Source: a virus
DNA length: 64,000 bases
Direction: 5' to 3' (one strand)
Virus record (IMG/VR): IMGVR_UViG_3300025646_000015
Span: 1 to 64,000 of that record
Shown here: piece by piece, positions 7,748 to 64,000 of the stretch
Layout: every line of letters begins with the position of its first letter
Position numbering within the stretch: position 1 is the first letter of the stretch
Translations under genes and position numbers: made by a program
The notes under the pieces: generated by a model
Told to the model about the DNA's origin: nothing
Database searches by the model: none
What the model saw: the letters and a program-made list of their open reading frames with translations, nothing else

Positions 7748-8147
7748 CTTCTTTCTTTCTAGTATTTTCTTGATCCGCTTTAATTGATTTTACTAAATCT
7801 TTAATATCTTGTTGTCCTAAACTTTTGAATTGTTTAAAATTCACATATATTCCATTAGCTTCGCTTAAAGTTCTCATGTGTTCTGCCCAATCCCCATCAA
7901 AGTTAGCTATCGTTTTAATTAAAATAATTAATTCTTTTTCTGTATAACTTGCATGAATAGAAGATTTAAATAAAGGTATCGCTCCAAAATGATCTGAAGC
8001 ATATACTTCATAAGTATTTAATTTTTTCTTTCCCACGCAACCTTCCCCTTGTAGGATAGAAAGAACAATACTTCCTATTCTATGCCTTGCCGACCAAGAT
8101 AATTGATCTATTTTATTAATATCCCCTTCTGTTGGAACAAAACTCAT
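7731..8147 (-). CDS. Paralogue pair member A, 138 aa
   Basis: Residues 10-80 parallel the next gene upstream: LSWSARHRIGSIVLSILQGEGCVGKKKLNTYEV against LKWSSSYQIGDIMISMIQGKGCYGRRHSNTFEV, then an 'IP' strand and a helix before a conserved Trp-Ala-Glu. The ATG at 8147, with GGGAGAA upstream, is preferred over 8189, which would overlap the upstream gene by 37 bases. Function unknown. Confidence 0.65.
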   Translation of the reverse strand: MSFVPTEGDINKIDQLSWSARHRIGSIVLSILQGEGCVGKKKLNTYEVYASDHFGAIPLFKSSIHASYTEKELIILIKTIANFDGDWAEHMRTLSEANGIYVNFKQFKSLGQQDIKDLVKSIKADQENTRKKEDGYIE

Positions 8148-8152
8148 ATAAA

Positions 8153-8434
8153 TTAATTCTCCCAAAGATGTCTTTGGTATTCTGCCCAAGTTTTATCTCC
8201 ATGCTTGAAATTTTTAATTAAATTAATTAATTCAATAACCTCACCTTCTGACATATACTCGCCAATGTCATTGAACCCTAACGGAATATTGCCATTCGAG
8301 TCCCATACAAGCACCTCAAAGGTATTTGAATGCCTTCTTCCATAACAACCTTTTCCTTGAATCATTGAGATCATTATATCTCCAATTTGATAAGATGAAG
8401 ACCATTTTAAATCATCTAAATCTTCTACTCTCAT
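8153..8434 (-). CDS. Paralogue pair member B, 93 aa
   Basis: Shorter copy of the domain in the downstream gene, with shared W(S/T)-(S/A), IG, QG(K/E)GC(Y/V)G and (N/L)T(F/Y)EV positions. A tandem duplication is likely. Start overlaps the upstream stop (ATGA). Function unknown. Confidence 0.65.
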   Translation of the reverse strand: MRVEDLDDLKWSSSYQIGDIMISMIQGKGCYGRRHSNTFEVLVWDSNGNIPLGFNDIGEYMSEGEVIELINLIKNFKHGDKTWAEYQRHLWEN

Positions 8435-8619
8435 TTGTTTTTGTTTAATTTGTCTTTTTTTACTTGTTGAAGTATAGCTAATTTTCTTTGAAACTCTCTT
8501 TGTTGTGCAAAGATTGAATCTTCGATTACAGAACCAAAGTTATTCCATTTTCTCTGCATGATATAATTACCATTGATAACATTGTTTGCTATGTTTGATT
8601 TTAAGGATTTACTACTCAT
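8431..8619 (-). CDS. Basic helical protein, 62 aa
   Basis: Starts MSSKSLKSNIANNVINGN; C-terminal half is a Lys/Gln-rich helix (FQRKLAILQQVKKDKLNKNK). First gene of a four-gene unit. Function unknown. Confidence 0.6.
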   Translation of the reverse strand: MSSKSLKSNIANNVINGNYIMQRKWNNFGSVIEDSIFAQQREFQRKLAILQQVKKDKLNKNK

Positions 8620-8663
8620 TTCGCAATATAATTTTTAAGGTTAATGTTTTTGTTATAATTTAT

Positions 8664-8692
8664 AACTTAGCAAATAAATTCAATATTGTCAA
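8664..8692 (-). promoter_or_regulatory. Sigma70-type promoter
   Basis: TTGACA, 17 bases ending TGC, TAAGTT; leader of about 37 bases. Confidence 0.65.
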
Positions 8693-8699
8693 ATTTTTT

Positions 8700-9098
8700 T
8701 TAAAAATCTTTTTTAAATTTAATATTTGAAGATGTATAATTGCATAAAATCTCTTGCCCTTTAGCTATTTCCTTTGTTGCTATCCATTCATTATCCACCA
8801 ATTTGCAATTTGAATATTTAGAATGATTTATATAATCAGAAAAAACCACAAAGTTAGGAGAACGAATGTGCAATGAATCGTCATCTTGGCGAGATGTTTT
8901 TAATTGCTCAACAATATCCGCGTTAGCCCCATGAGATAAAAGATCAAATATTTTGCAAGCATAAACTTTATAATCTAAATCATTTTTATAAATTAATTCT
9001 CCCTCATATATTTTAGTCGTAGCAAATAACCCGACTCCATGAATATTGGAACTACTTAAATGAACTTTATGTTGATTTACAAAATTTATTACATCCAT
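8700..9098 (-). CDS. SET-domain protein (putative protein lysine methyltransferase)
   Basis: A 132-residue protein made of little more than a SET domain: SSNIHGVGLFATTKIYEGELI (residues about 15-36, SAM-binding), DYINHSKYSNCKL (about 87-99, the N-H-S pair expected of the catalytic pseudoknot), and ATKEIAKGQEILCNYT (about 105-120). The Cys-rich post-SET part is absent, as in many small viral SET proteins. The ATG overlaps the upstream stop (TAATG). An upstream in-frame start at 9149 is possible but falls inside the preceding gene. Target unknown. Confidence 0.75.
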   Translation of the reverse strand: MDVINFVNQHKVHLSSSNIHGVGLFATTKIYEGELIYKNDLDYKVYACKIFDLLSHGANADIVEQLKTSRQDDDSLHIRSPNFVVFSDYINHSKYSNCKLVDNEWIATKEIAKGQEILCNYTSSNIKFKKDF

Positions 9099-9250
9099 TA
9101 CCTGCGACCTCTTTCTTGTGCCTGTCTCACTTTTGGACGCACCATGCAACCCTTATTCGTTAAAGACTCGACAAGTGGTTTTTTTCCACCATGTGAGTTT
9201 TGTTTCTTTTTATATACGCCTTTTGCTCCTTCGATTTGTGTCTTTGCCAT
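9098..9250 (-). CDS. Small very basic protein, 50 aa
   Basis: Starts MAKTQIEGAKGVYKKKQNSH and ends RPKVRQAQERGRR. Strongly basic, so it may bind nucleic acid. Coupled to the SET gene by TAATG overlap. Function unknown. Confidence 0.5.
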   Translation of the reverse strand: MAKTQIEGAKGVYKKKQNSHGGKKPLVESLTNKGCMVRPKVRQAQERGRR

Positions 9251-28871: not shown

Positions 28872-29866
28872 AATTTCAATTGTTGTAACAATGCAATAGC
28901 TTTATCTTTCCCCTTTACTTCGCATTCCCACTTGGCAGGTTTATCTGTTTCAATAGCAATGTGAGGTGGGAAATTTCCTAGAGCAAAATATTCTGCATGA
29001 GCGCGAGGCTTTTCGGGAGTTCCTTCTGACCAATGAAATACAGGAGCAATAAAGTTTTCGTCACCATTATCTTGATTGACCCATGTATATGCACAACGTT
29101 CAGCTTGAAATGAGACACTTTCGACTTCTGATGGATTACAAAAATCATGAAGATTGTCGTAACAAACAGGAATATTTATTTTATGTGTTTCAAATAAGTA
29201 GTCGCTAAATTTAATACAATTATCTACATTAAAGAAACCTTTATCTTCGTTCTCGATAGTAAGGCGATTATAAACTCCTGCATTACACATAGCAAGATTG
29301 CGAAAGAATCTATTAGCAACAATTTCCAAAGTTTCATCCATCTTGGGAGTATAATTAACATGAATGTTCATTGGAGCAGTATGATCTTGAGGCAATCCCA
29401 TTTTATCAAGCACACTAGCTTGCATATTTAATTCTCCAATAGTTCTACGAACCGCATCAGTATTCGTTGACGCGAGAACATTGAATTGATCGGGGTGAGA
29501 ACCCATGCTAATACCAAGAGTCTTGGCAACAATACCTACTTGTCGCAATCCTTGGTTAATTTCTTCAATATCGGGCAACTCTTCAAGATCAATTTCCAAA
29601 GTTTCATCGGTAACAAGAGGAAAAAGAGCGCTACTAACACGATAATGCCCAATGTTTGACTTAGCACAATGATGGACAATAGATTCAGTAACAACAACAT
29701 TATGCAAAATTCTATTAGATAACTCTTTAATTGCTTCATCTCTACCTTCTGTATTACACAAATCATTAAAACGTTTGCGTGTCATTGTGCGGAAAGAATA
29801 TTCATTATTGTCTTTGTCTTTGAGTTGCTCGCTAATGCAAGTTAAACCTAGTATTCTATTTGTCAT
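28868..29866 (-). CDS. uvsE: UV damage endonuclease UvsE/UvdE
   Basis: A 332-residue TIM-barrel endonuclease. Landmark motifs: HHCAKSNIGHYRVSSALFPLV (about 64-84), SMGSHPDQFNVLAST (about 120-134), PMNIHVNYTP (about 165-174), RLTIENEDKGF (about 196-206), PVCYDNLHDFCNP (about 232-244); the metal-binding His, Asp and Glu are in place. Cuts 5' of UV photoproducts. Useful to a phage exposed to sunlight. Leaderless start. Confidence 0.9.
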   Translation of the reverse strand: MTNRILGLTCISEQLKDKDNNEYSFRTMTRKRFNDLCNTEGRDEAIKELSNRILHNVVVTESIVHHCAKSNIGHYRVSSALFPLVTDETLEIDLEELPDIEEINQGLRQVGIVAKTLGISMGSHPDQFNVLASTNTDAVRRTIGELNMQASVLDKMGLPQDHTAPMNIHVNYTPKMDETLEIVANRFFRNLAMCNAGVYNRLTIENEDKGFFNVDNCIKFSDYLFETHKINIPVCYDNLHDFCNPSEVESVSFQAERCAYTWVNQDNGDENFIAPVFHWSEGTPEKPRAHAEYFALGNFPPHIAIETDKPAKWECEVKGKDKAIALLQQLKL

Positions 29867-52535: not shown

Positions 52536-52946
52536 TGGTGGAGGTGGCGGGAGTTGAACCCGCGTCCTGATCGCCTGCAACGATCACATCTACAAGTTTA
52601 GTTGATTTTTTTTATAGTTAAGATATCAACATCCAACTAGCCATTTCAATTATTTACAGTTTATGATATGGATAAATTTTTATCTGTTTTGGCAGATTAG
52701 TGACCCCGCAATCTTAATATCTGCGTCAAAAGTTGCGAGGGGGCAGCTTTCAAGCTACCATCTCAAGCTCTTCAGCTTGCTCGAATTGTACGAGATTGTC
52801 GTACTCTTCACGAGCAGCTTCAAGAAGCTCTTCTATGCTATAATAACCTTCGGCATGTATAGCTTGTGTGTCTTGATATCGGAGCCTGACACATCTCCGA
52901 CTTGCAGTGAAAGAATTCGAACGTCAGTCAAATCCAGAACACCCCC
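52536..52946 (-). ncRNA. ssrA: tmRNA with an unusually long tag
   Basis: 411 nt. Acceptor stem GGGGGTG/CACCTCC with discriminator A and encoded CCA; T-arm GCGGG/CCCGC with loop TTCAACT; 5' D-like TTCTGGATTTGACTG. Pseudoknot 1: TCGGAG/CTCCGA and TGTGTC/GACACA. Eleven bases later GCC at nt 93 (52854-52852) is the likely resume codon, close to nt 90 in E. coli. The frame then runs 34 codons, starts AEGYYSIEELLE, and ends QAEELEMVA before TGA (52752-52750). Usual tags end in ALAA and have about ten residues. Confidence 0.9.
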
Positions 52947-52981
52947 ATAAAATTTTAAAGAACTAAATATAGTTTACACTT

Positions 52982-54379: not shown

Positions 54380-55183
54380 TTAAAACCCAAGTAGTTTTTG
54401 AAATTTATTATAATCCACAAAATCTTCTAATGTATTGCTATTAGAATCGTTTTGTGCGATATTAATTAATTGTCGTTTATTTGACATCCATTTCCTTCCT
54501 GTCCAAACTTGTACTCCTTTAATGTAAGATTTGTATTGAGAGGGTGTTTCGCTATACACTCCGATGTATAAGTATTTGAAGTTAAAGCGTTTACAAAGCT
54601 CGACTTCTAAATGGTTGGATAAATTGCCGAGAGATAATTGTGGCTCAGAGTAGTCCCAAAAAAATAAACCCGAAACTAAAGAGTGACCAACTTGAGTCAT
54701 TGCGGTACAGGCAATTATTTCATCGTTTAGATAAAACAAAATGAAATGACTACTATCATCAACAACATATTTAAGAAAATTTTCTTTATCTAATATATCT
54801 TTGTAATTTTTGTGTGTTACATAGTTGTTATATATAGAATAAAGTTTATCTTTTATTTGATCTCTATCTGATTTTATATTTAAATCGCCAATAGTAATGT
54901 ATTTGTAAGAAAAATTATTTAATTTTAATGCTTTTAAGTGCTTACTTTTTGCGCGGAACTTTTCGCATTCGATTCTTGCGCTTCTTAATTGACACCAAAT
55001 TTGTTTATTATTTGCTTCACTTTCGTTCACAAATTCGCAATCGTTGGTATAGAAATATGTGGGTAGCCAACCCGTAGCTAGGGCTTCATCCTCTTCGCCA
55101 CTATCAACCCAAGCAGAAATAAGAGTATAATTAAAGTCTGTATCAGCTTGCTTAGAAATAACATGGTCATAAAATATTTTCAT
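54380..55183 (-). CDS. GNAT-fold protein resembling arginyl/leucyl-tRNA-protein transferase
   Basis: 267 residues. The C-terminal half (about 165-235) reads SLVSGLFFWDYSEPQLSLGN, then LEVELCKRFNFKYLYIGVY and IKGVQVWTGRKW; this order (aromatic-x-D-x-S/P-x-x-S-L-G, Y-L-Y-I-G, Y-K) is that of ATE1/Bpt enzymes that add an amino acid to protein N-termini. The CxxC N-terminal domain of those enzymes is not seen. It may transfer an aminoacyl group to a glycan or protein; inference. Confidence 0.5.
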   Translation of the reverse strand: MKIFYDHVISKQADTDFNYTLISAWVDSGEEDEALATGWLPTYFYTNDCEFVNESEANNKQIWCQLRSARIECEKFRAKSKHLKALKLNNFSYKYITIGDLNIKSDRDQIKDKLYSIYNNYVTHKNYKDILDKENFLKYVVDDSSHFILFYLNDEIIACTAMTQVGHSLVSGLFFWDYSEPQLSLGNLSNHLEVELCKRFNFKYLYIGVYSETPSQYKSYIKGVQVWTGRKWMSNKRQLINIAQNDSNSNTLEDFVDYNKFQKLLGF

Positions 55184-63116: not shown

Positions 63117-63710
63117 TTATGAATTGGCTAGTTTTTCTTCGACTTTAAGCAAGATATCTAAAACTTCATGCTCGTAACGAGTGTGTGTCCTCATTTTTTC
63201 AGCATCATCTGAAATATTGGACATTTCTTGAACAAATCTAGCATAAATTTCTTCATATCCATTAAAGAAGCAAACTTCTCCAGAGAAAAATTTTCTAACT
63301 TCTTCATTAGCTTCTTTGGGGGCTACTCCAGCAGTCGGCCTAAGTTTGTGGGTAACAATATAAGATGTCGCATCTTCTTGTTCTTTAAATGTATTTTCAT
63401 TTAGAAGACGTTCTTCTTTTGATGGCATTAATGTGATACTGATAACTTGATTGTCTCGTTCGCAAACCAAGAATTTATAACCTTTAGTGACTTCCAACTT
63501 CTTTTTTGTTAAAAAAGATTTTAATTCTTTAACATCGCTACAATAATTCCATTCCCTTTCTTCATAATTTTCTCCACAAGGATGGAATTCAACTAACCTG
63601 TCCCCAAGATGGGTAACTACAAAATTAGAATTCTGAGGCGAGTCTAGATCATTTACATGAATATCTGCTTCAGCTGCGTTTTCTTTGTCGATTTTATTTT
63701 TATTTTTCAT
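63117..63710 (-). CDS. Hypothetical protein, 197 aa
   Basis: Contains WNYCSDVKELKSFLTKKKLEV and LRPTAGVAPKEANEEVRKF; soluble, charged. Between the SSB-like gene and the Clp-type gene, overlapping the latter by 11 bases. Function unknown. Confidence 0.55.
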   Translation of the reverse strand: MKNKNKIDKENAAEADIHVNDLDSPQNSNFVVTHLGDRLVEFHPCGENYEEREWNYCSDVKELKSFLTKKKLEVTKGYKFLVCERDNQVISITLMPSKEERLLNENTFKEQEDATSYIVTHKLRPTAGVAPKEANEEVRKFFSGEVCFFNGYEEIYARFVQEMSNISDDAEKMRTHTRYEHEVLDILLKVEEKLANS

Positions 63711-64000
63711 TTTTTTTGATTTGATCTAATGTTATTTTGATATTGGAAGAAGAATCTTTTATAATCATTTTAGATATTATTTTTTCAATATTTTTTTGAA
63801 TAATATTTTGAATTGGTCTAGCCCCCAAGTTTGCATCAAAAGCTTTTTGAGAAAGAAAGTCAATACATTCCGAATCCAAGGTAACTTCAATTTTATACAT
63901 TTTTTTGATTTTTCTAATCAACTTTGATATATTTTTCTTTGTGAGAAATTTAATTTGCTCTAAAGAAAATGTATTGAATAGCAATATATCATCGATTCTA
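63700..64000 (-). CDS. ClpA/ClpB-type AAA+ ATPase, C-terminal fragment
   Basis: Only the last 100 residues are in the window. RIDDILLFNTFSLEQIKFL is the sensor-2 start of the second AAA module and FLSQKAFDANLGARPIQNIIQKNIE the conserved Clp D2-small domain (GARP/L core). The frame is open to the window edge, so the N-terminus lies beyond. Unfoldase or disaggregase. Confidence 0.75.
   Translation of the reverse strand, partial: RIDDILLFNTFSLEQIKFLTKKNISKLIRKIKKMYKIEVTLDSECIDFLSQKAFDANLGARPIQNIIQKNIEKIISKMIIKDSSSNIKITLDQIKKNEK

Follow-up and report, generated by a model that had tools for sequence, protein, structure and literature searches.

A phage tmRNA gene encoding a conserved acidic 34-residue tag, and its association with a ClpC-type ATPase gene

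Phage tmRNAs, and long tags among them, are already known, and the reason why phages carry a tmRNA is unsettled. The locus described here raises the question of what becomes of proteins that receive an acidic tag of 34 residues ending EMVA, and whether a Clp-type ATPase of the same phage has a part in it. The tmRNA gene and the C-terminal part of the ATPase gene lie in a stretch of 64,000 nucleotides, referred to below as the window, cut from a virus record of 101,268 bases. A conserved non-standard tag, together with a ClpC-type unfoldase gene that is repeatedly nearby, makes the question of a phage tag-protease pair testable. In the open-licence literature no paper was found on the EMVA tag, on VA-ending families of phage tags or on linkage of tmRNA and ClpC genes in phages.

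The tmRNA gene and its reading frame

A tmRNA with tRNA-like ends, an encoded CCA and pseudoknot 1 had been recognised by inspection of the letters (the sequence-only reading), with no strand given and with a covariance model proposed as a check. The covariance-model search of the window gave a match to the whole of RF00023 (model positions 1-374) at 124.3 bits and E 3.8e-48, the gathering score of the model being 47 bits. ARAGORN and Rfam returned identical boundaries, 52536-52946 on the minus strand, and all the elements that had been named were found. The features of the gene are as follows.

52536-52946, minus strand: tmRNA (ssrA) gene, 411 nt, with encoded CCA (RF00023 and ARAGORN)
52867-52900, minus strand: pseudoknot 1, with stem 1 at nt 47-52/63-68 and stem 2 at nt 54-59/75-80
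52858, minus strand: the A that corresponds to E. coli A86, at position -4 relative to the resume codon
52852-52854, minus strand: predicted resume codon GCC, nt 93 (GGC in six other EMVA contigs and in relatives with ALAA tags)
52753-52854, minus strand: predicted tag reading frame of 34 codons, AEGYYSIEELLEAAREEYDNLVQFEQAEELEMVA, conserved in relatives
52750-52752, minus strand: tag stop codon TGA
52742-52759, minus strand: nt 188-205, a hairpin GGUAGCU-UGAA-AGCUGCC whose loop contains the tag stop codon (seen in the sequence and in alignments)

The acceptor stem, read from the sequence as GGGGGUG/CACCUCC, holds a G3.U pair, which is an alanine identity element. Alignment with a relative (L007) revealed paired changes in both stems of pseudoknot 1, and the third pair of the stop-codon hairpin is U.G in the window tmRNA and U-A in L060.

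In E. coli, A86 is the frame-setting base and fixes the frame four bases down (PMC2481249). The GCC at nt 93 has the equivalent A at -4 and lies 12 nt from pseudoknot 1; relatives have the same A and a spacing of 10-13 nt. In the alignment from Rfam, as in the contigs of the clade (36 stretches fetched with the tmRNA 3' motif, tags being read where both ends were recognised), the aligned resume position holds an Ala or Gly codon, GCC in the window tmRNA and GGC elsewhere. No stop interrupts the 34 codons from nt 93 to the TGA. Such an open frame has a chance of about 8% at the base composition of the window, so that taken alone it is weak evidence, and it is conservation in seven records that gives it strength. 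On this comparative evidence the resume codon is placed at nt 93, giving a predicted tag of 34 residues. The A at -4, the 12-nt spacing and the maintenance of the frame in six other contigs thus bear out both the resume codon and the open frame of the sequence-only reading.

Tag prediction, also proposed there as a check, gave a different start. ARAGORN resumes the window tmRNA at nt 132, for a tag of 21 residues starting AREEYD, and predicts such a start in L055 and L060 as well. This start would, however, sit 51 nt past pseudoknot 1 instead of 10-13, and the 13 codons upstream of it, which place AEGYYSIEELLEA ahead of AREEYD in the nt 93 reading, are also conserved. Every clade relative resumes at the aligned GGC, and ARAGORN misses or misplaces several further tmRNAs of the clade. 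A start at nt 132 is therefore scarcely credible, and the comparative evidence favours nt 93. The tag would then run AEGYYSIEELLEAAREEY...EMVA rather than begin AREEY, and its tryptic peptides would include EEYDNLVQFEQAEELEMVA.

Many clade phage tmRNAs that Rfam detects are missed or mis-framed by ARAGORN, and tag databases built on this program may therefore hold wrong tags. Automatic tag calls on phage tmRNAs can be off by many codons.

A conserved leader near GTTCTTTRAAAATTTTAT directly precedes the mature tmRNA 5' end in the window (52947-52965, minus strand) and in clade tmRNAs, and in L069 the sequence TTGACT-17-TATACT lies just upstream of it; a promoter plus RNase P leader before the clade tmRNAs is possible. 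At 43 nt upstream of the tmRNA there is a match to a T4-type late promoter (TATAAATA). It was rejected, because the relatives that were checked lack it and because the minus strand of the genome holds about as many copies of the motif as chance would give (15 found, 11.8 expected). A match of 29 bases, in frame, between tag nt 113-141 and phi92 gp156 (E 0.03) was set aside too, as probably due to chance in EELLEAA-type sequence.

Conservation of the tag and its relatives

The same tag was found in six further virus contigs (L055, L060 and L220-L223). All seven EMVA tags have 34 residues and the last 14, LVQFEQAEELEMVA, are identical. For each of the 21 pairs among them dN is smaller than dS, and the variable bases number 5/3/9 by codon position. 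The tag region is less diverged than the remaining RNA in three pairs (Fisher p 0.005, 0.016 and 0.065), and a degenerate AEELEMVA-stop pattern retrieved six contigs, every one of which holds the motif inside a tmRNA. Because the length is kept, the last 14 residues are identical and dN is below dS in every pair, we take the tag to be real and under selection. There is no synonymous change in the last eight tag codons, as expected if the end of the frame also pairs in the stop-codon hairpin, so that RNA structure adds constraint at the 3' end of the tag.

The acidic character and EMVA end seen in the sequence-only reading held up, with a net charge of -10 and the end kept in all seven records. 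AlphaFold, from the single sequence, gave one helix over tag residues 7-33 (pLDDT 92). The hydrophobic moment was not significant against shuffles (p 0.1), and amphipathicity is therefore not claimed. Published tag lengths run from 8 to 35 residues (PMC8012679); 34 residues is at the top of this range and inside it, long but not unprecedented.

Relatives in the clade have tags of 20, 21, 27 or 31 residues that are mostly basic and mostly end ALAA (for example GNKSRVKAFAFKKRELALAA and GAKNRVRALGLKNRLAAKRFGFKSRKLALAA), with ALVA and AMAA as other ends. As the tags of relatives run to 20-31 residues, long tags appear to be a trait of the clade and the acidic EMVA form one stable branch of it. A second phage lineage, fetched through the ATPase only, has tags of 21-22 residues (for example GNVLDKMETLGLVRESEVTVA) ending mostly VTVA or VVVA. 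Where resume codons were set by the A(-4) rule only, L209 has an acidic 34-residue tag ending ALEA, jumbo-phage tags end LAVA, and L207 (G062 29249-29664) has an apparent tag, AKSKLINGLLDRFNPAKKVASRKVVTRKSVAHQVAAVA, ending AAVA, whose 38 residues exceed the published maximum of 35.

Several members of the second lineage carry GOLLD RNA nearby. In L139, L146, L156 and L187, which also hold a ClpC-type ATPase, GOLLD RNA (RF02032) lies at 10.8-12.3 kb on the minus strand, 0.1-1.6 kb from the tmRNA and on the opposite strand to it.

A distant BLAST search with the tmRNA region found no relative among named phages, the exact tmRNA 5' end gave no match as a search pattern, and the nearest neighbour proteins, used as bait, retrieved few relatives. 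Most matches of the tmRNA 3' motif in bacterial genomes were to Bacilli and Treponema MAGs, which gave no pointer to the host. Nearly all bacteria have a tmRNA, and the 3' part of the TLD is similar to that of bacterial ones, so that the gene might be a captured bacterial tmRNA, a passenger of no benefit to the phage. This is very improbable, since divergent phages have kept the gene over a long time and its tag is conserved; moreover, none of the bacterial genomes matched by the 3' motif has a similar tag.

The ClpC-type ATPase and its linkage to the tmRNA

The sequence-only reading had also placed the C-terminus of a phage Clp-type ATPase at 63.7 kb, and this proved correct.

63700-64000, minus strand: C-terminal part of the ClpC-type ATPase gene (full ORF 63700-66162 of the record)

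The ORF runs beyond the window and encodes 820 residues. It matches phrog_4871 (E 5e-220) and, as its best PDB match, ClpC 6em8 (E 9e-175, residues 6-815), and contains the domains PF02861 (Clp_N, 27.1 bits, cut-off 20.7), PF00004, PF07724 and PF10431 (D2-small). At the ClpP-loop position it has VGF, and [VIL]GF is present in 15 of 15 aligned phage homologues. These matches predict a complete unfoldase of the ClpC type, including its ClpP-binding loop, and, since the loop is present in all 15 homologues, a ClpP partner is likely. Neither SmpB nor ClpP genes were found in 32 phage records, many of them fragments, so that the host proteins would be needed. Of 32 phage records, 31 lack ClpS; a ClpS homologue (PF02617, 64 bits) is present at L219 (G067 2179-2388), in a 263-kb phage with a ClpC-type ATPase.

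In the window the tmRNA and ATPase genes are about 10.7 kb apart. Elsewhere in the first clade the tmRNA comes directly after the ATPase gene, with gaps of about 60-160 nt (G026, G037, G029), or about 1.4 kb after it (G002, G018, G030, G039); in other records it is 5.7 kb away or farther, and in a few it lies about 15 kb upstream. Of 80 loci retrieved with the ATPase as the sole query, 37 carry a co-oriented tmRNA about 0-5 kb downstream and none carries one upstream, despite more upstream DNA being available. These 37 loci are not independent events, as the arrangement occurs in just two clusters at 60% ATPase identity.

The full-length ATPase is present in five of the seven EMVA records; searches of the remaining two, which measure 35 and 105 kb and are possibly fragments, did not find it. 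It is not limited to genomes with the unusual tag: the same ATPase accompanies ALAA tags in relatives, and so is not an adaptation to the EMVA end alone. One 73-kb relative (G056) has an ATPase 50% identical and no tmRNA. The first-clade tmRNA adjoins a DUF1501 gene as well as the ATPase (L110, L111, L120, G017, G020, G037 and G038, with DUF1549/DUF1553 also in L120), which was counted against a special tie between tmRNA and ATPase. The conserved neighbourhood may reflect shared ancestry. The linkage is suggestive of a joint function, without singling out EMVA. Thus, of the proposal that the tag is routed to the phage ATPase, what stands is that the ATPase is of the ClpC type, with the tmRNA downstream of it in two deep lineages; its presence beside ALAA tags speaks against a route particular to this tag.

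Genes of the DUF1501 and DUF1549/DUF1553 families typically occur in Planctomycetota and Verrucomicrobiota, a hint that the hosts belong there. In L183 a gene for an M42/M20-type peptidase (8073-9113, plus strand) lies between the ATPase and the tmRNA, placing genes for tagging, unfolding and peptide breakdown in a row. The window also encodes, at 54380-55183 on the minus strand and within a glycan-modification region, a protein of 267 residues that contains an ATE_C domain (PF04377, 46 bits; arginyl/leucyl-tRNA-protein transferase) and is 79% identical in IMGVR_UViG_3300042731_009106. Its role might be in an N-degron route, or it may be a GNAT fold put to another use.

Proposed role of the tag and comparison with known systems

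The best explanation overall, to which a probability of about 60% is given, is a working phage tmRNA whose tag most likely marks its products for a ClpP-based protease. From the conserved anatomy, the tmRNA would be charged with alanine by the host alanyl-tRNA synthetase during infection, be bound by host SmpB and EF-Tu and enter stalled ribosomes, where the unfinished protein would receive Ala plus the 34 encoded residues. Translation of the tag is very probable. The tag is predicted to fold as one long helix, acidic and ending in the short hydrophobic sequence MVA, and it probably acts as a degradation signal. The tagged product would most likely go to a ClpP-based protease, the unfoldase being either host ClpX or the phage ClpC-type ATPase docked on host ClpP. 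The phage ATPase is given a real chance of a part because its gene repeatedly adjoins the tmRNA gene in such phages. Routing of EMVA to it is possible, and its assignment as a reader of the tag is tentative.

The tag ends EMVA. Its MVA resembles LVA; altered ends of the E. coli tag, LVA, AAV and SVA among them, are known and serve in targeted degradation (PMC9382460). As LVA is a working degron variant, the tag need not avoid ClpXP; by analogy, host ClpX may still read the MVA end and host ClpXP could suffice. The tag might then be an ordinary degron, read like LAA or LVA, with its length and acidity of no special role and the ATPase serving other substrates. Such a tag would be in keeping with the ALAA, ALVA or AMAA ends of most clade relatives and with the range of lengths already published (PMC8012679). 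It accounts less well for conservation of the entire tag, beyond its end, or for the recurrence of VA-type ends other than ALAA in the partly GOLLD-bearing lineage, in jumbo phages and in Bacillus phage G, and we consider it rather unlikely. Less likely again is rescue without destruction, in which a poor degron would free ribosomes and spare phage proteins, the helix shielding the C-terminus. Rescue outweighs product degradation for survival (PMC8012679), and tags in several phage lineages have ends other than ALAA; yet the hydrophobic MVA end, needless for a mere stabiliser, is unchanged in all seven EMVA tags. RNA pairing in the hairpin may, however, also hold this end in place.

Marking for a ClpP-based protease is thus preferred, and phages carrying both a tmRNA and a ClpC-type unfoldase may partly take over the rescue-and-disposal route of the host. 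A stronger form of this proposal is doubtful: that at least two lineages of large phages carry a matched module of tmRNA and ClpC-type unfoldase, with long lineage-specific tags (the EMVA helix; VTVA/VVVA) read on host ClpP as a rescue and disposal route of their own.

The ATPase resembles ClpC (S. aureus 6em8; B. subtilis ClpC/MecB) in its full-length match, two AAA domains, middle segment and GF-type ClpP loop, but is phage-encoded, with a divergent N-domain and no phage ClpP found. The tmRNA shares with E. coli ssrA, and with one-piece RF00023 tmRNAs in general, a TLD with the G.U pair, pseudoknot 1, the A86 equivalent at -4, a tag frame ending at a hairpin loop and an encoded CCA. The E. 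coli tag, ANDENYALAA, has about 10 residues and ends LAA, whereas the phage tag has 34, a charge of -10 and the end MVA.

The tmRNA genes known from tailed phage genomes, as here, include those of the mycobacteriophage Bxz1 group, Bacillus phage G, Streptomyces BE phages and huge phages (PMC4131195, PMC7162821). No named phage was found to carry the EMVA tag; that of Bacillus phage G, AKLNITNNELQVA, also ends VA, whereas the tags annotated in Streptomyces phages, ANSKFAFALAA and ANSNVASAYALAA, are short. Pairing of a tag with another protease has its precedent in Mesoplasma florum, whose tmRNA tag is read by Lon (PMC9382460). That tag, like the one described here, is long with a non-LAA end; it differs in ending NYAFA and in belonging to a bacterium without active ClpXP (PMC9382460).
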